The notes under the pieces were generated by a model. The model was not told the DNA's origin, did not search any database, and saw nothing but the letters and a program-made list of their open reading frames with translations. Of a DNA stretch of 64,000 nt, positions 838 through 18,244 are shown piece after piece. The position numbers and the translations under genes were made by a program. How positions within the stretch are numbered: the stretch's first letter is position 1; the number at the start of each line of letters is the position of its first letter. The DNA is from Streptacidiphilus sp. PB12-B1b (GTDB taxonomy: Bacteria > Actinomycetota > Actinomycetes > Streptomycetales > Streptomycetaceae): the NCBI RefSeq assembly GCF_014084125.1, contig NZ_CP048405.1, forward strand, positions 2,604,001 to 2,668,000. The letters run 5' to 3'.

Positions 838-1090
838 ACGGCGAGCCTAGGGCCCGGCACCGACAGTCCGCCGACCTACGCCCCGACGCCTGCCGTGAGG
901 CACGCCGGGACGCACCCCCTGACGCACCCCCGCGGCCGCCGTCCGGAGCCCGTCACCGGTAGGCGCGGCTCCGCGCGGGTAGACACCCATCGAACGGTCG
1001 GGCCCGTGGCCTCCGCCCCTGGGAGATCGCGTAGGTTGAGGCCGGGGGCGCGCACCCGCACGCCGATCCGACGGTACGGAGGGGGCCGCA

Positions 1091-4852: not shown

Positions 4853-6619
4853 GTGGCAGCCCACGATGACGACTACGCCCGAGGCGGCAGGCCCGCACGG
4901 GGTTCTGAGGAAGCCCTCAGCCAGGTTTCCTTTCTTGAGCAGGAGATTGCTGTCCTGCGCCGTAAGCTCGCAGACTCGCCGCGCCACACGAGAATCCTCG
5001 AGGAGCGCATCGCCGAGCTGCAGGCCAATCTGTCCGGAGTCACCGCCCAGAACGAGCGGCTCGCCTCCACCCTGAGGGAGGCCCGCGACCAGATCGTGGC
5101 CCTCAAGGAGGAGGTGGACCGGCTCGCCCAGCCGCCGGCCGGCTTCGGCACCTTCCTGACCGCCAACGAGGACGGCACCGCCGACATCTTCACCGGCGGC
5201 CGCAAGCTGCGGGTGAACGTCAGCCCCAGCGTCCCGCTGGACGAGCTCCAGCGTGGCCAGGAAGTCATGCTGAACGAGGCGCTCAACATCGTCGACGCGA
5301 TGGAGTTCGAGAGCATCGGCGACATCGTCACCCTCAAGGAAGTCCTCGAGGACGGCGAGCGCGCCCTGGTCACCGGGCACACGGACGAGGAGCGGGTGGT
5401 CCGGCTCGCCGAGCCGCTCCGCGACCTCACCCTGCGCTCCGGCGACGCCCTGCTGCTGGAGCCGCGCTCGGGCTACGTCTACGAGGTGGTGCCCAAGAGC
5501 GAGGTCGAGGAGCTGGTCCTCGAAGAGGTCCCGGACATCGACTACGACCGCATCGGCGGCCTCGGCAGCCAGATCGAGCAGATCCGCGACGCGGTCGAGC
5601 TGCCCTACCTGCACGCCGAGCTGTTCAAGGAGTACGAGCTGCGCCCGCCCAAGGGCGTCCTGCTCTACGGCCCGCCCGGCTGCGGCAAGACGCTCATCGC
5701 CAAGGCGGTGGCCAACTCCCTGGCCAAGAAGGTGGCGGAGGTCACCGGACAGCCCCAGGGGAAGAGCTACTTCCTCAACATCAAGGGCCCCGAGCTGCTC
5801 AACAAGTACGTCGGCGAGACCGAGCGGCAGATCCGCCTGGTCTTCCAGCGGGCCCGGGAGAAGGCCAGCGAGGGCACGCCGGTCATCGTCTTCTTCGACG
5901 AGATGGAGTCGCTGTTCCGCACCCGCGGCTCCGGTGTCAGCTCGGACGTGGAGAACACCATCGTCCCGCAGCTGCTCGCCGAGATCGACGGCGTGGAGGG
6001 CCTGGAGAACGTCATCGTCATCGGGGCCTCCAACCGCGAGGACATGATCGACCCGGCGATCCTGCGCCCGGGACGGCTCGACGTCAAGATCAAGATCGAG
6101 CGCCCGGACGCCGAGGCGGCCAAGGACATCTTCTCCAAGTACCTGAAGAGCTCCCTGCCGCTGCACCCGGACGACGTCAAGGAGCACGGCTCGTCGGTCG
6201 AGGGCACGGTCGACGCCATGATCCAGGCCGTCGTGGAGCGGATGTACACCGAGACCGAGGAGAACCGCTTCCTGGAGGTCACCTACGCCAACGGTGACAA
6301 GGAGGTCCTGTACTTCAAGGACTTCAACTCCGGCGCCATGATCCAGAACATCGTGGACCGGGCCAAGAAGATGGCGATCAAGGACTTCCTCGACCACGGC
6401 CAGAGAGGTCTGCGGGTCACCCATCTGCTCGCCGCCTGCGTGGACGAGTTCAAGGAGAACGAGGACCTGCCCAACACCACCAACCCGGACGACTGGGCCA
6501 GGATCTCCGGCAAGAAGGGCGAGCGGATCGTCTTCATCCGCACGCTGGTCACCGGCAAGCAGGGGGCCGAATCCGGCCGCTCGATCGACACTGTCGCCAA
6601 CACGGGGCAGTACCTGTAG
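4853..6619 (+). CDS. arc: Proteasome-associated AAA ATPase ARC (Mpa)
   Basis: A 588-residue hexameric ATPase that unfolds pupylated substrates and feeds them into the 20S core. An N-terminal coiled coil (about 20-95) is the Pup-binding part. Tandem OB folds (about 95-240) precede the AAA module with Walker A GPPGCGKT (273-280) and Walker B VIVFFDEM (344-351). The C terminus GQYL carries the penultimate tyrosine that docks into the proteasome alpha ring. GTG 4853 is chosen because GGAGGAGG sits 8 nt upstream and translation gives the usual MAAHDDD start; a GTG at 4844 is the alternative. Confidence 0.97.
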
Positions 6620-6634
6620 GTCAGCACCGCCACC

Positions 6635-6670
6635 GTCCGGCTACGGGTGCCCGTCGGCCCGTAGCCGGAC
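6635..6670 (+). terminator. Hairpin terminator after arc
   Basis: A perfect 13-bp stem (GTCCGGCTACGGG / CCCGTAGCCGGAC) with a 10-nt loop separates arc from dop, so dop needs its own promoter. Confidence 0.8.
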
Positions 6671-6751
6671 GCTGGCGTCTGGACGCCGTCCCCCGCCTCG
6701 GCAGGCGTCCGGCGGCACGAAGTGAAAGTAACCCGGGCCGCGATCTCCCGG

Positions 6752-6774
6752 TTGTCAGTGCGCAGTCCTAGGCT
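6752..6774 (+). promoter_or_regulatory. PafBC-type (RecA-NDp) promoter of dop
   Basis: TTGTCAGTG (6752-6760), exactly 8 nt, then TAGGCT (6769-6774). This matches the TTGTCAGTG-N8-TAnnnT architecture of LexA-independent, PafBC-activated DNA-damage promoters described in mycobacteria. The 11-bp gap between TTGTCA and TAGGCT is too short for an ordinary sigma-70 promoter, which supports the activator reading. It lies 66 nt upstream of the dop start codon. Confidence 0.75.
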
Positions 6775-6840
6775 CGGGTTACCGCACCGGGCCGACCGTC
6801 GACGGACGGCTCGTCAGCGGCAGCTTTGAAGGAGGGCCGC

Positions 6841-8352
6841 ATGTCTGTACGGCGCGTGATGGGCATCGAGACGGAGTACGGGATCTCTGTCCCGGGACAC
6901 CCCAACGCCAATGCCATGCTCACCTCGTCCCAGGTGGTGAACGCCTACGCGGCGGCCATGCACCGGGCGAGGCGGGCCCGCTGGGACTTCGAGGAGGAGA
7001 ACCCGCTGCGCGACGCGCGGGGATTCGACCTGGCCAGGGACACCGCGGACGCCAGCCAGCTGACGGACGAGGACATCGGCCTGGCCAACATCATCCTCAC
7101 CAACGGCGCCCGCTTCTACGTGGACCACGCCCACCCCGAGTACAGCTCGCCCGAGGTCACCAACCCCCGCGACGCCGTGCTCTGGGACAAGGCCGGCGAG
7201 CGGATCATGGAGGAGGCGGCCAACCGCGCCCTGCAGCTGCCGGGTGCCCAGCCGATCCACCTGTACAAGAACAACACCGACAACAAGGGCGCCTCCTACG
7301 GCACCCATGAGAACTACCTGATGAAGCGGGCGACGCCGTTCGCGGACATCGTCCGGCACCTCACCCCGTTCTTCGTCTCCCGGCAGGTGGTGACCGGGGC
7401 CGGCCGGGTCGGGATCAACCAGGACGGCTCGGTCAACGGCTTCCAGATCAGCCAGCGGGCCGACTACTTCGAGGTCGAGGTCGGGCTGGAGACCACCCTC
7501 AAGCGCCCGATCATCAACACCCGCGACGAGCCCCACGCCGACGCCGAGAAGTACCGCCGGCTGCACGTCATCATCGGCGACGCCAACCTCTCCGAGATCT
7601 CCACCTACCTCAAGCTGGGCACCACCGCGCTGGTGCTGTCGATGATCGAGGACGGCTTCATCGGCGTGGACCTGGCCGTGGACCAGCCGGTGCGCACCCT
7701 GCACAAGGTCTCCCACGACCCGGACCTCGGCCACCTGCTGTCGCTTCGCAGCGGGCGGAAGATGACGGCCGTTCAGCTCCAGATGGAGTACTGCGAGCTG
7801 GCCCGCAAGTACGTGGAGGACCGTTTCGGCGCCGACGCCGACGAGCAGACCCGCGACGTCCTGGACCGTTGGGAGGACGTCCTCGGCCGGCTGGAGCGCG
7901 ATCCGATGAGCCTGTCCCGGCAGCTGGACTGGATCGCCAAGCGGGAGATTCTGGAGGGCTACCGCACCCGCGACGGCCTCGGCTGGGACAACCCCCGGCT
8001 GCACCTGGTCGACCTCCAGTACGCCGACGTACGGGCCGAGAAGGGCCTCTACAACCGCCTGGTGGACCGCGGCCGGATGGACCGCCTGCTGGACGAGGCC
8101 GACGTGCTCAGGGCGGCCCACAAGCCGCCGGAGGACACCCGGGCCTACTTCCGCGGCCGCTGCCTGGAGCAGTACGCCGACCACGTGGCCGCCGCCTCCT
8201 GGGACTCGGTCATCTTCGACCTGCCCGGCCGTGACTCGTTGCAGCGAGTGCCCACGCTGGAGCCGCTGCGCGGTACCAGGAAGCACGTCAAGGCGCTGCT
8301 GGACCGCTGCCGCACGGCGGAGGAGCTGGTCCGGGTGCTCTCCGGCGGCTGA
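6841..8352 (+). CDS. dop: Depupylase/deamidase Dop
   Basis: A 503-residue glutamine-synthetase-fold enzyme that removes Pup from substrates and, where Pup ends in Gln, deamidates it. The start [14 protein letters not shown] carries the ETEYG nucleotide-site motif. The segment about 42-78 ([17 protein letters not shown] onward) is the Dop-loop, which distinguishes Dop from the ligase Paf[12 protein letters not shown] and the [13 protein letters not shown] block are shared with PafA. ATG 6841 follows GGAGGG by 6 nt; an in-frame TTG at 6826 would place the ribosome site inside the gene. A terminator and a separate promoter isolate it from arc. Confidence 0.96.
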
Positions 8353-8463
8353 ACATCTGTCCGCTTCCGGCGTAACCGCAGCGTAGCGACGGATCACCAC
8401 GGGTGAATGCGGCCGTGCTGGGCATCATCGGAACAGCACCGGACGTTGCACCGGTGAAGGAAA

Positions 8464-8497
8464 ACACGAGGCAACTGTCACACCTCGTGTATAAGGT
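8464..8497 (+). promoter_or_regulatory. pup promoter region with inverted repeat and weak PafBC-like motif
   Basis: ACACGAGG (8464-8471) and CCTCGTGT (8483-8490) form an 8-bp inverted repeat with an 11-nt spacer. Overlapping it, CTGTCACAC (8475-8483) is followed by exactly 8 nt and then TAAGGT (8492-8497). This reproduces the TGTCA core and spacing of the dop promoter. TATAAG (8490-8495) is an alternative -10. The rest of the 8353-8572 gap shows nothing else clear. Confidence 0.5.
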
Positions 8498-8572
8498 CTG
8501 ACCAGGAGTACCGGGTAGCACCGGGCCCAACCGTGCGCAGCGATGCGCCGTCAACCGAGCGGGGTGAGGGAC

Positions 8573-8791
8573 ATGGCGACCAAGGACACCGGCGGCGGCC
8601 AGCAGCGGGCGAACCGCTCCTCCGAGGAGGTCGAGGAGGCGGAGGTCGAGGCCAACGAAGCCTCCGACCTCAAGGAGCGCAAGGCGAAGCTCGACGACGA
8701 CGTGGACGCGGTACTCGACGACATCGACGAGATCCTGGAGTCGGACGCCGAATCCTTCGTCCGGAGCTACGTGCAGAAGGGCGGCGAGTAG
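8573..8791 (+). CDS. pup: Prokaryotic ubiquitin-like protein Pup
   Basis: A 72-residue, acidic, largely disordered tag that PafA joins to substrate lysines. It has the usual MATKDTGGGQ start, a Glu/Asp-rich centre with the ARC-binding helix region LKERKAKLDDDVDAVLDDID, and the C terminus SYVQKGGE. The last codon is GAG, so the protein is translated with the ligation-competent glutamate and needs no deamidation. The ATG at 8573 is preceded by GGGGTGAGGG. It stands between dop and a decayed nuclease gene, upstream of prcBA. Confidence 0.95.
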   Translation: MATKDTGGGQQRANRSSEEVEEAEVEANEASDLKERKAKLDDDVDAVLDDIDEILESDAESFVRSYVQKGGE

Positions 8792-8818
8792 CCCCCCTGC
8801 GGGGCGTGCGGGAATCCA

Positions 8819-8855
8819 CCCGTGGAAATCCCGGCTTTCCCCGGGTTTCCACGGG
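8819..8855 (+). terminator. Hairpin after pup
   Basis: CCCGTGGAAA (8819-8828) pairs with TTTCCACGGG (8846-8855), with an inner CCGG/CCGG stem. It sits 27 nt after the pup stop and could terminate or attenuate read-through towards prcBA. Confidence 0.6.
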
Positions 8856-8906
8856 CGCGCAGGCGATAGGTGTACGAGCTGTCGTCGGCCCCGGCCCTGC
8901 GGCGGT

Positions 8907-9179
8907 GTGCTTTCCGGCCGTGCCGCGAACCTGCCGCGAACCGCGTTCGCGGGCCTCTCCACCCGGCGTCCGCGCCGACCGCGCCGATCCTGCTCCGGGC
9001 ATGTTGATCACGACCGCAAAACGGGTAGGGTCCGAGCCATCCTCTGCTCCAACTGCGACGGCGGACCGGGTCAGTTCAAGGACCGGCCCGAGCTGCTCCG
9101 GCGTGGGGCCGACTATCTGGAAGGGAACGTGTGGAAGCCAACACTCGTGGCACCGGGCGTCTACCGGCTGCCTTCTTGA
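8907..9179 (+). pseudogene. Endonuclease VII-like (HNH) gene remnant between pup and prcB
   Basis: The C-terminal 58 residues read cleanly as the recombination endonuclease VII family: [12 protein letters not shown], then [16 protein letters not shown] and a YLEGN end. The N-terminal half from GTG 8907 is low-complexity Arg/Pro sequence without the upstream zinc CxxC pair. No ribosome site precedes it. The residue after the second Cys pair is Asp (CSNCDGG), where active relatives carry the catalytic Asn. The gene overlaps the prcB start by 49 bp, so its 3' end may be kept because it holds the prcB leader. A shorter functional protein cannot be excluded. Confidence 0.6.
9004..9031 (+). promoter_or_regulatory. 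Candidate promoter of prcBA
   Basis: TTGATC (9004-9009) and TAGGGT (9026-9031) are 16 bp apart, inside the nuclease remnant and 99 nt upstream of prcB. Confidence 0.45.
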
Positions 9180-9979
9180 CACCGGGTTCGTCGTCCTTCG
9201 TCGAATTCCTGGCCGACCACCAGCCGGAGCTGCTCCCCGGCCGCCGGGTCCTGCCCGCAGGCGCGCAGCAGCCGCTGGAGGCCCCGCACGGCACCACCAT
9301 CGTCTCCGTGACCTTCGACGGCGGGGTGATCCTGGCCGGTGACCGCCGGGCCACCATGGGCAACCTGATCGCCCAGCGGGACATCGAGAAGGTGTTCCCG
9401 GCCGACGAGTACTCGGCCGTCGGCATCGCCGGCACCGCCGGGCTCGCGGTCGAGATGGTGCGCCTGTTCCAGCTGGAGCTGGAGCACTACGAGAAGATCG
9501 AGGGCACCCAGCTCTCACTGGAGGGCAAGGCCAACCGGCTGACCACCATGATCCGGGGCAACCTGGGCATGGCCATGCAGGGTCTGGCCGTGGTCCCGCT
9601 GTTCGCGGGCTACGATCTGGACCTCGGCCGCGGCCGGATCTTCAGCTACGACGTCACCGGCGGCCGCTCCGAGGAGCTGGGCTTCGCCGCCACCGGCTCC
9701 GGCTCGCTCTTCGCCAAGGGCTCCCTGAAGAAGCTCTACCGCCCCGACCTGACCGCCGAGCAGGCCGCCACCGCCGTCGTCCAGGCGCTGTACGACGCCG
9801 CCGACGACGACTCGGCCACCGGCGGCCCGGACCTCACCCGGGGCATCTTCCCGATCGTGGGCGTCATCACCGAGGACGGCTTCCGCCGCCTTCCCGACGA
9901 GGAGGTGGGGGCGCTGGCCCGCAGCATCCTCGACCACCGCCTGGAGTTCCCCAACGGCCCGCAGGCCGGGCTGCTCTAG
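9131..9979 (+). CDS. prcB: 20S proteasome beta subunit PrcB
   Basis: The 282-residue precursor of the catalytic beta ring. A 54-residue propeptide ([10 protein letters not shown] onward) ends in APHG; autocleavage exposes Thr55 of TTIVSVTF as the N-terminal nucleophile. The conserved [14 protein letters not shown] (Asp and Arg of the active site) and the GSGS segment follow. The GTG start lies inside the preceding gene remnant and gives the family's conserved N terminus. prcA follows after 68 nt in the same direction. Length is normal for the family. Confidence 0.97.
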
Positions 9980-10047: not shown

Positions 10048-10803
10048 GTGTCGACGCCGTTCTACGTCTCACCCCAGCAGGCCATGGCCGACCGCGCGGA
10101 GTACGCCCGCAAGGGCATCGCCCGCGGCCGCAGCGTGGTCGTGCTCACCTACACCGACGGCATCGTCTTCGTGGCGGAGAACACCTCGCGGGCGCTGCAC
10201 AAGGTCTCCGAGATCTACGACCGCATCGCGTTCGCCGCGGTCGGCCGCTACAACGAGTTCGAGAACCTCCGGATCGGCGGCGTCCGCTACGCCGACCTGC
10301 GCGGCTACTCCTACGACCGGGCCGACGTCAACGCCCGGGGCCTGACCAACGTCTACGCCCAGACCCTGGGCACCATCTTCTCCTCGGCCGGCGAGAAGCC
10401 CTACGAGGTCGAGCTGATCGTGGCCGAGGTCGGCAAGTCGCCCGACGACGACCAGATCTACCGGCTCACCCACGACGGCTCCGTCGCGGACGAGCGCGGC
10501 ACGGTCGCCGTCGGCGGCAACGCCGAGTCCATCGGCCACTACCTGACGCAGCACCACACCGCCGGTCTGAGCCTCCCCGAGGCCCTCAAGCTGGCCGTGG
10601 ACGCCCTCGCCAGGGATCCCAACGGCGGCAGCCCGCGGACCCTGACCCAGGACCAGCTGGAGGTCGCGGTGCTGGACCGCAGCCGCTGGCAGCAGCGCAA
10701 GTTCAAGCGCCTCGTCGGCGGCCAGCTGGACCGGCTGCTGGCGGGCGACGAGACCGCGACCGGCGACGTGGAGGACGAGCCGGGCAGCTCCGACGAGGGC
10801 TGA
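10048..10803 (+). CDS. prcA: 20S proteasome alpha subunit PrcA
   Basis: A 251-residue structural subunit of the outer rings, which form the gate and dock the ARC ATPase. The N terminus [23 protein letters not shown] has the gate and H0 helix typical of alpha subunits, and no catalytic threonine is exposed. The tail (about 226-251) is acidic and probably disordered. GTG 10048 follows AGAAGGGG by 11 nt. It is co-directional with prcB and closed by a strong terminator. Confidence 0.96.
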
Positions 10804-10946: not shown

Positions 10947-12308
10947 ATGGACCGCCGAATCTTCGGGCTGGAGAACGAGTACGGCGTCACCTGTACGTTT
11001 CGGGGGCAGCGGCGACTCTCCCCGGACGAGGTGGCCAGGTACCTCTTCCGCCGTGTCGTGTCATGGGGCCGGAGCAGCAACGTGTTTCTGCGCAACGGCG
11101 CCCGTCTCTATCTCGACGTGGGCTCGCATCCGGAGTACGCCACTCCGGAGTGCGACGACGTCACCGAACTCGTCACCCACGACAAGGCCGGGGAGCGCAT
11201 CCTCGAAGGACTCCTGGTGGACGCCGAGAGGCGGCTGCACGAGGAGGGCATCGCCGGCGACGTCTACCTGTTCAAGAACAACACCGACTCCGCGGGCAAC
11301 TCCTACGGCTGCCACGAGAACTACCTGGTGGCCCGGCACGGCGAGTTCTCCCGGCTGGCCGACATCCTCATCCCGTTTCTGGTCACCCGCCAGCTGATCT
11401 GCGGCGCGGGCAAGGTGCTGCAGACCCCGCGCGGCGCGGTGTACTGCGTGAGCCAGCGGGCGGAGCACATCTGGGAGGGCGTCAGCTCGGCGACCACCCG
11501 CTCCCGTCCGATCATCAACACCCGCGACGAGCCGCACGCCGACGCCGAGCGCTACCGCCGGCTGCACGTGATCGTCGGCGACTCCAACATGTCCGAGACG
11601 ACCATGCTGCTCAAGGTCGGGGCGACCGACCTGGTGCTGCGCATGATCGAAGCCGGTGTGGTGCTGCGGGACCTCACCCTGGAGAACCCGATCCGGGCGA
11701 TCCGCGAGGTCAGCCACGACCTCACCGGCTCCCGCCAGGTCCGGCTGGCCAACGGCCGCGAGGCCAGCGCGCTGGAGATCCAGGAGGAGTACTTCACCAA
11801 GGCCGCCGAGTTCGCCGACGCCAGGGGCCTGCGCACCGGCACCGTCGCCAAGGTGCTGGACCTGTGGGGCCGCACCCTGGAGGCGATCCGCAGCCAGGAC
11901 CTCACCCTGGTGGAGCGGGAGATCGACTGGGTCATGAAGTACCAGCTGATCGAGCGCTACCGGGCCAAGAACCAGATCAGCATGTCCCACCCGCGGGTCG
12001 CCCAGATCGACCTCGCCTACCACGACATCCACCGCCGCCGGGGGCTGTTCTACCTGCTGCAGAACCGCGGGCAGGCGGAGCGGGTCACCACCGACCTCAA
12101 GATCTTCGAGGCCAAGTCGGTCCCGCCGCAGACCACCCGGGCCCGGCTGCGCGGGGACTTCATCCGCCGGGCCCAGGAGCAGCGCCGCGACTTCACCGTC
12201 GACTGGGTGCACCTGAAGCTCAACGACCAGGCGCAGCGCACCGTCCTGTGCAAGGACCCGTTCCGCTCGGTGGACGAGCGGGTGGAGAAGCTGATCGCCG
12301 GCATGTAG
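10947..12308 (+). CDS. pafA: Pup-protein ligase PafA
   Basis: A 453-residue glutamine-synthetase-fold ligase that phosphorylates the Pup C-terminal glutamate and joins it to a substrate lysine. Visible are the nucleotide motif FGLENEYG (6-13), [11 protein letters not shown], and [13 protein letters not shown], also found in Dop. It lacks the Dop-loop insertion, and this separates ligase from depupylase. Dop and PafA are clear paralogues within one locus. A terminator after prcA and its own promoter make it a separate unit. Length fits the family. Confidence 0.97.
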
Positions 12309-14105: not shown

Positions 14106-15140
14106 GTGCCCATCGCCAAGTCCGAGCGGTTGATGAACCTCGCGCTGTGCCTGATGAACACCAGGCGCCCGTTGAGCAAGCGGGAGCTGCGGGACTCCAT
14201 CGAGGCGTACCAGGAGGCCGCGGAGAGCGGCACCGAGGACTCCTTCAACCGCATGTTCGAGCGGGACAAGGACGACCTGCGCGAACTGGGCCTGGTCATC
14301 GACGTGGAGGAGAACCCGCTCGACGGCGAGTCCGGCTACCTGGCCCGGCGCGACCGCAACCGGCTGCCGGAGATCTCGCTGGACGCCGAGGAGGCCGCCG
14401 CGCTGAGCCTGGCCGCCGGGGTCTGGCGGCAGGCCCGGCTCGCCGGTGCGGCCAGCGGCGCCCTGCACAAGCTGCGCGCCGCCGGGGTGCTGGCCGAGGG
14501 CGCCGAGGCGGCCGAGGCGCACACCGCGCTGGAGCCGCGCATCCCCGCCCGGGAGACCGCCTTCGAACCGCTGCTGGCAGCCGCCCGCGACCGGCGTCCG
14601 GTCACCTTCGGCTACCGCAAGTCCGGCGCCTCCGCCGCCGAGCCGCGCAGCGTGGAGCCGTGGGCGCTGGAGTGCTGGCACGGCCACTGGTACCTGGCCG
14701 GCTGGGACCGGGACCGCAAGGACGTCCGGGTGTTCCGGCTCAGCCGGATCACCGACCGGGTCAGGGTCCGCGGCGGGGCGTTCACCGCCGACGTCCCGGA
14801 CCACGTGGACGTCCGCCAGCACGTGGCCCGGTTCGCCGGGGAGGGCGCCACCGCCACCGCCCGGATCAGGCTGCGCCGCGGCGCGGCCTTCCCGCTGCGC
14901 ACCAAGGCCCTGTCCATCGATCCGGTCGACGCCGACTGGGACGAGCTGGAGGTCCCGTTCGGGCACGGCCTCGCCGCCGACCTGTCCGAGTTCGGCGCGG
15001 CCGTGCTGGTCGTCGCCCCGGCGGAGCTGCGCTCCGACGTCATCGCCCGGCTGCGCGCCGTCGCCGGGCCCGCCGACCGCGCCGACGCCGGCGCCGCCGA
15101 AGCCGCCGACCGGCCCGCCAGTGAGGGAGCAGCGCTGTGA
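14106..15140 (+). CDS. pafB: WYL-domain transcriptional regulator PafB
   Basis: A 344-residue half of the PafBC activator. An N-terminal winged helix (about 1-85, MPIAKSERLMNLALCL onward) binds DNA. The central WYL domain has the signature HWYLAGWD and VFRLSRI, and a WCX-type C-terminal domain follows. In mycobacteria PafB and PafC together activate the LexA-independent DNA-damage regulon at TTGTCAGTG-N8-TAnnnT promoters. It starts at GTG 14106 behind GGGAGGGG. It overlaps pafC by 4 nt, so the two are translationally coupled. Despite the name, no role in Pup ligation is known. Confidence 0.93.
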   Translation: MPIAKSERLMNLALCLMNTRRPLSKRELRDSIEAYQEAAESGTEDSFNRMFERDKDDLRELGLVIDVEENPLDGESGYLARRDRNRLPEISLDAEEAAALSLAAGVWRQARLAGAASGALHKLRAAGVLAEGAEAAEAHTALEPRIPARETAFEPLLAAARDRRPVTFGYRKSGASAAEPRSVEPWALECWHGHWYLAGWDRDRKDVRVFRLSRITDRVRVRGGAFTADVPDHVDVRQHVARFAGEGATATARIRLRRGAAFPLRTKALSIDPVDADWDELEVPFGHGLAADLSEFGAAVLVVAPAELRSDVIARLRAVAGPADRADAGAAEAADRPASEGAAL

Positions 15141-16123
15141 GCAACGCCATCGACCAGACCCGACGGATGCTCTCGCTGGTCACCTACCTGCGCGAGCGCC
15201 CCGGCGCCCGGGTCGGCGACGTGGCCCGGGCCTTCGGCATCTCCGAGCGCGAGCTGGTCGGCGATCTGAACGTGCTGCCCATGTGCGGCACCAGCTTCCG
15301 CGGCGGCGACCTGCTCGACATCGACACCGACGGCGAGCACATCTGGTGGCACAACCCGGACGACGTGGCCCAGCCGCTGCGGCTGGCCTCGGACGAGGCG
15401 ATCTCGCTGCTGGTCGCCGCCCGCGCGGTGGCCGGACTGCCGGGGCTGCGCGAGCGCGACCGGGAGGCGCTGACCCGCGCCGTCGCCAAGCTGGAGGCGG
15501 CGGCCGGGGACGCGGCCGAGGGCAGCGCCCGGGTCGGCGTCACCTTCGAGGCCGAGGGCAGCGTCTTCGCCGACGTCGACCGGGCGCTCACCGAGCGCCG
15601 CCGGCTGTGGATCCAGTACTACTCCTCCGGCCGGGGCGAGATGACCGAGCGCGAGGTGGACCCGATCCGCCTGGTCACCGAGGGGCACACCTATCTGGAG
15701 GGCTGGTGCCGGCTCTCCGAGGACCGGCGGATCTTCCGGCTCGACCGGATCGCCGACATCCGGGTGCTGGGGGTCGAGTCGGACCCGCCGCCGCTGGAGC
15801 TGCGCGACCTGTCGGACGGGCTGGTGCGCCCGGCGGCCGACGATCCGCAGGTGGTGCTGGAGGTGGGCCCGGCCGGGCGCTGGGTCACCGAGTACTACAC
15901 CCACGAGGAGTCGGTGGAGCTGCCCGACGGCGGCCTGCGGATCACCCTGCGCACGCCGGACCCGGCGGGCCTGCTGCGGCTGGCCCTGCGGCTCGGCGCG
16001 GACGGCAGGATCACCGCCCCGGCGGCGCTCGCGGCCCAGGCCAGGGCCACGGCCGCGGAGGCGCTGGCGCTCTACGGCGACGAGCCGCAGGACGCCGGGG
16101 CCGTCGCCGGGGGCGCCGCGTGA
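15137..16123 (+). CDS. pafC: WYL-domain transcriptional regulator PafC
   Basis: The 328-residue partner of PafB with the same layout: winged helix (1-75, RRMLSLVTYLRERPG), WYL domain (TYLEGWCRLSEDRRIF) and WCX domain. The GTG start at 15137 overlaps the pafB stop (GTGA), and its own stop overlaps the next start in the same way. The pair probably forms one complex, which matches the unfused PafB-PafC arrangement. A PafBC-type promoter is visible in this same window upstream of dop. Confidence 0.93.
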   Translation: MSNAIDQTRRMLSLVTYLRERPGARVGDVARAFGISERELVGDLNVLPMCGTSFRGGDLLDIDTDGEHIWWHNPDDVAQPLRLASDEAISLLVAARAVAGLPGLRERDREALTRAVAKLEAAAGDAAEGSARVGVTFEAEGSVFADVDRALTERRRLWIQYYSSGRGEMTEREVDPIRLVTEGHTYLEGWCRLSEDRRIFRLDRIADIRVLGVESDPPPLELRDLSDGLVRPAADDPQVVLEVGPAGRWVTEYYTHEESVELPDGGLRITLRTPDPAGLLRLALRLGADGRITAPAALAAQARATAAEALALYGDEPQDAGAVAGGAA

Positions 16124-16371
16124 GCGCCGCGCCGCCGACCCGCTTCCGGGCCGCCTGCACGGAGTGCAGGGCCGCCACCGAACTGGACGTGGACGAGTTC
16201 CGGCTCACCGTGGGACGCACCCGCGAACGCACGTTCTACACCTTCACCTGTCCCGACTGCGGCACGGCCGTCCGCCGCACCGCGGGCGAGCGCATCGTCG
16301 AGGCGCTGACCGGCGCGGGCGTACGCACCATGCGCCTGCACCTCGGTGAGCAGTCGCCGAAGGTACCGTAG
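16120..16371 (+). CDS. Small zinc-ribbon protein of unknown function, coupled to pafC
   Basis: An 83-residue protein with two CxxC knuckles, C13/C16 (CTEC) and C44/C47 (CPDC), typical of a four-cysteine zinc ribbon. It has no signal peptide or membrane segment. GTG 16120 overlaps the pafC stop as GTGA, so it is translationally coupled to the regulator pair. I know no assigned function; coupling suggests it is made in step with PafBC and may bind nucleic acid or the complex, which is inference. Confidence 0.8.
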   Translation: MSAAPPTRFRAACTECRAATELDVDEFRLTVGRTRERTFYTFTCPDCGTAVRRTAGERIVEALTGAGVRTMRLHLGEQSPKVP

Positions 16372-18050: not shown

Positions 18051-18244
18051 CGCGCCCCCGCGGCCACCGCCACGGGCCGGGGAAAATTGCTGGGTCGAGT
18101 GTCGGTGCGGGCGGGTAGCCTCTGGGTGAGATGCACATCGAAGACGATCAAGACCTGTGCGCCGTCCGCGGCACCGCTGCCGGTACCGCTGAAGCCGCCG
18201 CCCACCGCGCTCCCGTGCGCCCGAACCGGGAGGATGGTGCCGCG

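Follow-up and report, generated by a model that had tools for sequence, protein, structure and literature searches.

Genes and promoter elements of the Pup-proteasome locus

The window analysed here (the whole stretch of 64,000 nucleotides from Streptacidiphilus sp. PB12-B1b, whose numbering is used throughout) carries a Pup-proteasome locus in which dop, prcB, prcA and pafA all score above the curated NCBIfam cut-offs. The genes of the locus are as follows:

6841-8352, forward strand: dop, depupylase (TIGR03688, 799 bits against a cut-off of 492)
8573-8791, forward strand: pup, whose product ends in GGE (PF05639, above the Pfam cut-off)
9131-9979, forward strand: prcB (TIGR03690)
10048-10803, forward strand: prcA (TIGR03691)
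10947-12308, forward strand: pafA (TIGR03686)
14106-15140, forward strand: pafB (WYL and WCX; matches the PafB chain of 7p5x, E 9.7e-55)
15137-16123, forward strand: pafC (HTH_PafC, WYL and WCX; matches the PafC chain of 7p5x, E 2.9e-48)

The first-pass annotation of this DNA had noted pafB and pafC 7 kb downstream of a proposed DNA-damage promoter in front of dop, and both genes are indeed present in the genome, the distance from the dop site to pafB being 7.3 kb. The segment RMFERDK of the encoded PafB, presumably its recognition helix, is identical to the PafB chain of 7p5x, which we take to be an M. smegmatis structure. The promoter elements considered in this work are located at the following positions of the window:

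844-866, reverse strand: CTGTCGGTG-N8-TAGGCT, 6 bp before the ATG of a RecB-like PD-(D/E)XK nuclease gene
6742-6749, forward strand: GATCTCCC, upstream block of an older dop promoter, 19 bp before the shared TAGGCT
6752-6760, forward strand: TTGTCAGTG, PafBC-type -26 element by match to the motif, of a class enriched genome-wide
6761-6768, forward strand: N8 spacer between TTGTCAGTG and TAGGCT
6769-6774, forward strand: -10 element TAGGCT, common to the PafBC-type motif and the older dop promoter
8476-8497, forward strand: TGTCACAC-N8-TAAGGT before pup, of the same geometry, with TGTCAC for TGTCRG; counterpart of TGTCRGAC-N8-TAGGGT elsewhere
18099-18121, forward strand: GTGTCGGTG-N8-TAGCCT, 9 bp before the first ATG of a DEAD-box helicase gene

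The RecA-NDp consensus comprises the core TGTCRGTG, an 8-bp spacer and TANNNT. The DNA in front of dop had been said to fit this architecture at every fixed base and at the exact spacing, and TTGTCAGTG-N8-TAGGCT is found exactly so at 6752-6774: it has the TGTCRGTG of the consensus, which the sites of the own genome back, at 8 bp from TANNNT, and it is the sole match without mismatches in the 64-kb window. Under a first-order Markov model, TTGTCRGTG-N8-TANNNT is expected 0.0004 times in 64 kb, counting both strands, and 0.05 times in the 7.67-Mb genome. The start codon of dop, at 6841 and preceded by AGGAGGG, lies 66 bases 3' of TAGGCT. When scored with a leave-one-out matrix among the sites of its own genome, the dop core ranks 15th of 31, and the site ranks 22nd of 31 once 20 bp upstream and 12 bp downstream are included.

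A simple scan of positions 6500-9200 gave no consensus sigma-70 promoter. Control of dop by LexA was also considered and rejected, there being no SOS box (GAACN4GTTC) near dop; the sole exact match to this pattern in the window is at 16225-16236, against 0.25 expected by chance.

The motif class in the genome and in the family

In the own genome, TTGTCAGTG-N8-TANNNT has 13 matches and NTGTCRGTG-N8-TAGNNT has 26, in both cases against 0 for the reversed pattern, and the motif class is therefore real in this genome. The second pattern recurs in 61/61 family genomes, each of which holds 4 to 33 copies against 0 to 2 for the reversed control. Twelve of the 31 distinct sites of the own genome precede frames counted as repair or replication genes by their Pfam matches, from which we assigned the gene names: recA, uvrB, dnaX, a DNA polymerase III delta-prime-like gene, polA, two UvrD-type helicases, an exonuclease III-type gene, the RecB-like PD-(D/E)XK nuclease, the DEAD-box helicase, an SNF2-type helicase and a radA-like gene. 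The remaining sites stand before rpsF, before genes with no evident repair role and, in several cases, before no clear gene. A possible start codon occurs 2 to 9 bp after the -10 element at 8 of the 12 repair-gene sites, so that those 8 messages could be leaderless; dop, with its distance of 66, differs from them.

The two ends of the -26 core behave differently across the 12 Streptacidiphilus genomes. The pattern TGTCRGTH-N8-TAGNNT, without the last G, gives 78 matches against 7 for the control (three of the 78 being dop sites), which indicates that the last G of TGTCRGTG is not essential. VGTCRGTG-N8-TAGNNT, in which the first T is changed, gives only 20 against 12, and this first T thus seems essential. 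We had considered that TTGTCAGTC variants at dop might be non-functional, based on the absence of last-base mismatches, a view overturned by the same 78 matches against 7.

An older dop promoter shares the -10 element

Upstream of dop, GATCYCCN-N19-TASKCT is found in 68 of 148 genomes belonging to 11 of 17 genera, all 68 matches having a spacing of 19 even though 14 to 26 was allowed, and shuffled upstream regions yield 0.05 matches per 148. Since GATCTCCC, which forms the upstream block of this older promoter in the window, shares TAGGCT with the PafBC-type motif, the PafBC-type element falls inside the older promoter's spacer; overlying it in this way, the PafBC-type site can be at most an added input to dop. 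The short gap between the -35 and -10 positions had been taken to argue against ordinary sigma-70 use, an argument that needs a qualifier because the -10 element TAGGCT also serves an older conserved promoter with its own block at 6742-6749. We discarded GATCTCCC-N19-TAGGCT as a regulon motif, its only exact match in the own genome being the one at dop; with up to two mismatches it has 30 matches against 6 for the control.

Identity between the two halves of Streptacidiphilus is 96% for GATCTCCC, 85% for TTGTCAGT, 64% for the N8 spacer and 50% for the last G, in comparison with 32% for the 33 bp further upstream and 78% for dop third codon positions. Judged by these values, GATCTCCC and TTGTCAGT both look constrained, GATCTCCC more so.

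Distribution of the dop site among relatives

A dop gene was found in 149 of 150 family genomes, and 148 upstream regions were readable. The two genomes outside the 148 are G066, with no dop match, and G070, whose dop start was unreadable in the fetched stretch and whose promoter was read from another stretch (L284). The lack of a dop match in G066 and the occurrence of dop and recA in pieces in G070 may be assembly faults.

The full 11/11 match is present at dop in 5 of the 12 Streptacidiphilus genomes, in 2 of the 38 genomes of the sister genus and in 0 of the 98 other family genomes. With the relaxed form TGTCRGTN these counts become 8/12 (9/13 including G070), 3/38 and 0/98, respectively. 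The four Streptacidiphilus genomes without the site read TGTCAGCC (one genome, G037) or TGTCACCG (three genomes). In other families, for which 40 of 121 dop-bearing genomes were read, none of the 40 upstream regions has the full match and one has 10/11. At recA, checked in 30 of the 101 genomes with a recA match, the full motif occurs in 30/30 loci, 13 of them from Streptacidiphilus and including the four genomes that have no dop site. The first-pass annotation had suggested comparing dop upstream regions across Streptomycetaceae for conservation of the motif; at the family level this conservation fails, being ruled out by the 0/98 outside the two sister genera and the 3/38 in the sister genus, while recA keeps its site throughout. 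The dop site is a speciality of Streptacidiphilus and not a family trait.

As a separate observation on the other families, 17 of the 40 regions (L167-L206) have TAGGCT at a distance of 12-15 bases upstream of the dop start, which would suit a leaderless or almost leaderless dop in those bacteria.

The relaxed motif was also searched in 61 locus regions (60 stretches, each 15.9 to 19.9 kb long, plus the first 22 kb of the window), with 55 matches against 0 for the reversed pattern. By position, 35 of these lie at the nuclease gene, 11 at the helicase gene, 8 at dop and 1 at pup. Within Streptacidiphilus the site is present at the nuclease gene in 9/12 genomes, at the helicase gene in 10/12 and at dop in 8/12, which makes the dop site about as frequent in this genus as the two neighbouring repair-type sites; in two of the three Streptacidiphilus genomes lacking the nuclease site, no nuclease gene was found in the stretch either. 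When 98 dop promoters were anchored on TAG[GT]CT, at least 7 of the 8 TGTCRGTG bases were found in 14 at the N8 spacing and in 0 at 24 other spacings, the 14 not being independent events because the genomes are related. A quick dop tree, for which the rows were taken as aligned and in which L082 and L281 have very long, probably false branches, groups Streptacidiphilus and the sister genus together with 84% SH-aLRT only. Given this grouping, separate gains and a single origin followed by many losses are equally possible.

The pup promoter and the TGTCRGAC variant

The window's pup element, TGTCACAC-N8-TAAGGT, is weaker than the TGTCRGTG or TGTCRGAC form, and its TGTCAC is found at pup in 6 of the 12 Streptacidiphilus genomes. 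Among the 61 genomes, TGTCRG-N10-TANNNT stands before pup in 22 and TGTC at the same distance in 34; in a scan of TGTCRG versus TAGNNT before pup, all 22 matches had the N10 spacing, and the 18 other spacings tried gave 0. Most often the element reads TGTCRGAC-N8-TAGGGTCTG. The pup sites of other genera have TGTCRG at one fixed spacing, mostly as TGTCRGAC and not with the full TGTCRGTG core. The sole relaxed-motif (TGTCRGTN) match before pup in the 61 regions belongs to G003 and reads TGTCAGTC. With TGTCRG as the requirement, 9 of the 61 genomes have a dop site (all Streptacidiphilus, including G037 with its TGTCAGCC), 22 have a pup site and 0 have both, which gives 31/61 genomes with a site of this geometry at pup or dop, pup being unexpectedly the commoner position. 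From the sister genus, the 61 cover 9 of 38 genomes, and the three in which dop has a site are not among these 9.

Over 20 genomes, TGTCRGAC-N8-TAGNNT gives 90 matches, some of which are pup sites, against 4 for the control. Leaving out the pup sites, we fetched 20 of the 90 from four genomes and scanned 10 downstream frames against Pfam. Two of the fetched sites precede sbcD (one by Pfam, one by like sequence), and one each precedes xseB, uvrC and an SNF2 helicase. In G016 the site precedes a protein that shares 77% identity with the window's helicase across 694 aligned positions, the site reading TGTCGGTG in the window and TGTCGGAC in its G016 counterpart. The other fetched sites precede genes for MarR-type, NUDIX, TerD-domain and pentapeptide proteins, unscanned frames, or nothing clear. 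Because TGTCRGAC fronts repair genes and a helicase orthologue, the last two bases of the -26 element seem to vary among TG, TC and AC at one promoter class.

Two further features were observed in this part of the survey. An inverted repeat, ACACGAGG...CCTCGTGT, at 8464-8490 overlaps the PafBC-like element before pup and could be an operator. In addition, a near-identical TGTCRGACCCKGCCGGTAGYGT site with similar DNA after it occurs in three genera (L322, L326, L333 and L338, from G000, G009, G016 and G050, respectively); these sites have no convincing reading frame and perhaps represent a promoter of the damage type that drives a short RNA or leader lacking annotation.

A candidate PafBC input to dop

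The reading that we favour, and regard as somewhat probable, is that the dop site is a working PafBC-type (RecA-NDp) element which provides a damage-responsive input to dop in this species and in most of its genus. Dop is not needed to activate a Pup that already ends in Glu. Considering that Pup here ends in GGE, more Dop should therefore mean less tagging, and the extra Dop would mainly remove Pup, sparing repair proteins from the proteasome during the damage response. Basal dop transcription would be supplied by the older promoter, GATCTCCC-N19-TAGGCT, and TTGTCAGTG, within the spacer of that promoter and centred near -26 if transcription starts about 7 nt after TAGGCT, would act as the PafBC contact. 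In the available text of PMC11804915, PafBC is described as activated by single-stranded DNA, with the HTH of PafB on the -26 motif and the HTH of PafC on sigma-A domain 4, the housekeeping polymerase thereby using PafBC-dependent promoters. At dop, PafBC activated by single-stranded DNA after damage would likewise hold the housekeeping polymerase on the shared -10 element. What the sequences show is the motif with its geometry, enrichment, distribution and presence at repair genes, the older promoter, and pafB and pafC; PafBC binding, induction, how large the effect is and which way it goes, and where transcription starts are inferred for this promoter.

The reading is made plausible by the enrichment of the motif class, the repair genes downstream of its members, the presence of the dop site in 8/12 genomes of the genus, the exact N8 spacing and the free last base, together with the better conservation of TTGTCAGT (85%) than of N8 (64%) or the 33 bp upstream (32%) and the RMFERDK identity. 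Against it count the absence of the site from 98/98 other family genomes and 35/38 of the sister genus, its 0/40 in other families, the four of 12 Streptacidiphilus genomes that have a recA site and no dop site, the rank of 22/31 with flanks, and the 66-bp distance to the start codon as opposed to within 10 bp at 8/12 repair-gene sites. Moreover, TTGTCAGT (85%) is kept no better than GATCTCCC (96%), which lies outside the motif. In M. smegmatis, deletion of pafBC left the protein levels of Dop, Mpa, PrcA and PrcB unchanged under the conditions tested, according to the available text of PMC5656591, and the unchanged Dop level counts against a transfer of the arrangement from mycobacteria.

Several of these observations would also fit a dop gene driven by the older promoter alone, with TTGTCAGTG as a remnant or a lineage-specific spacer of little effect, kept partly by descent. 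GATCYCCN-N19-TASKCT is the widely conserved feature of the region (68/148, at a single spacing), GATCTCCC, which is not part of the PafBC motif, is where the block conserved across the genus starts, and the site is missing in 4/12 Streptacidiphilus and 35/38 sister-genus genomes. However, the presence of the dop site in the genus is similar to that of the two repair-type sites, TTGTCAGT is better kept than the adjoining N8 and the spacing is exact, and we consider this explanation unlikely, although one to be reckoned with. We judge it improbable that the element is read by some other regulator, whether a WYL-domain protein other than PafB and PafC or a factor resembling ClgR, which has been proposed to act at this promoter class in mycobacteria. 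Reported recognition of the mycobacterial P1 motif by ClgR (a point taken up in PMC5656591) speaks for such a regulator; against it stand the presence of this motif in the PafBC sites mapped in vivo by immunoprecipitation after cross-linking (PMC6789036) and the location of pafB and pafC, the WYL-domain genes covered here, at the locus itself.

A further proposal, that in the family the damage input to the Pup system goes mainly through pup and that the dop site is the same input moved in Streptacidiphilus, is possible if rather doubtful; it is compatible with PafBC acting at dop, so that the likelihoods given here overlap and need not sum to a whole. In its favour are the 22/61 pup sites, for which 18 other spacings gave 0 and which in no case share one of the 61 genomes with a dop site, as well as the 90 TGTCRGAC-N8-TAGNNT matches against 4 in 20 genomes and the positions of some before sbcD, xseB, uvrC and the orthologue of the window's helicase. 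On the other hand, PafBC binding to TGTCRGAC is putative, the exclusivity of pup and dop sites follows phylogeny and so reflects only a small number of independent events, the 61 genomes do not take in the three of the sister genus that have a dop site, and the window's own pup has TGTCAC instead of TGTCRG.

Returning to PafBC input at dop, the proposal of the first-pass annotation that dop falls under the LexA-independent damage response is supported in part, by the motif class, the repair genes that carry it, the nearby pafBC and the 8/12 genomes of the genus; the lack of conservation across the family and the position of the site on top of an older promoter speak against it. On sequence grounds the proposal is plausible at the level of the genus.

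Relation to known systems and meaning for the family

The arrangement resembles the mycobacterial PafBC regulon, with its RecA-NDp or P1 promoters, in the core TGTCRGTG, the 8-bp spacer and TANNNT, in the position of pafBC at the Pup-proteasome locus and in the repair genes that carry the motif. It differs in that the target here is a Pup-system gene, whereas in M. smegmatis no influence of PafBC on Pup-system components was seen under the conditions tested (PMC5656591), and in that the dop site overlies a second promoter and was found in only two genera. The RecA-NDp promoters published for recA and SCO6735 of S. coelicolor, the latter gene being reported as UV-inducible, are of the same promoter class and come from the same family (PMC5087735), but neither dop nor pup is their target, the genes concerned encoding a recombinase and a macrodomain protein. 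In the available text of a later publication, the systems are linked by the clearance of RecA and other repair proteins following damage, not by control of Pup-system genes (PMC8223512). In the literature searched, as far as its available text extends, we found no report of a PafBC-type site at dop or pup. According to the available text of a 2022 paper, a first search pointed to a lack of conservation of the M. smegmatis motif in S. venezuelae, and a RecA/LexA-independent response in Streptomyces had yet to be demonstrated (PMC9380542); the motif copies in 61/61 family genomes bear on that reported non-conservation.

The more general result is the repeated occurrence of damage-type promoter elements in the Pup locus, in front of either pup or dop. 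We propose tentatively, as an idea that may well prove wrong, that Streptomycetaceae wire the PafBC response into the Pup system at pup (in eight sampled other genera) or at dop (in Streptacidiphilus), with tagging shifting in opposite directions, and that the PafBC -26 element is TGTCRG followed by TG, TC or AC. If this were true, pup standing for tag supply and dop for tag removal, damage would push tagging opposite ways in related bacteria, and the damage input to the Pup system may thus enter at different genes in different lineages.
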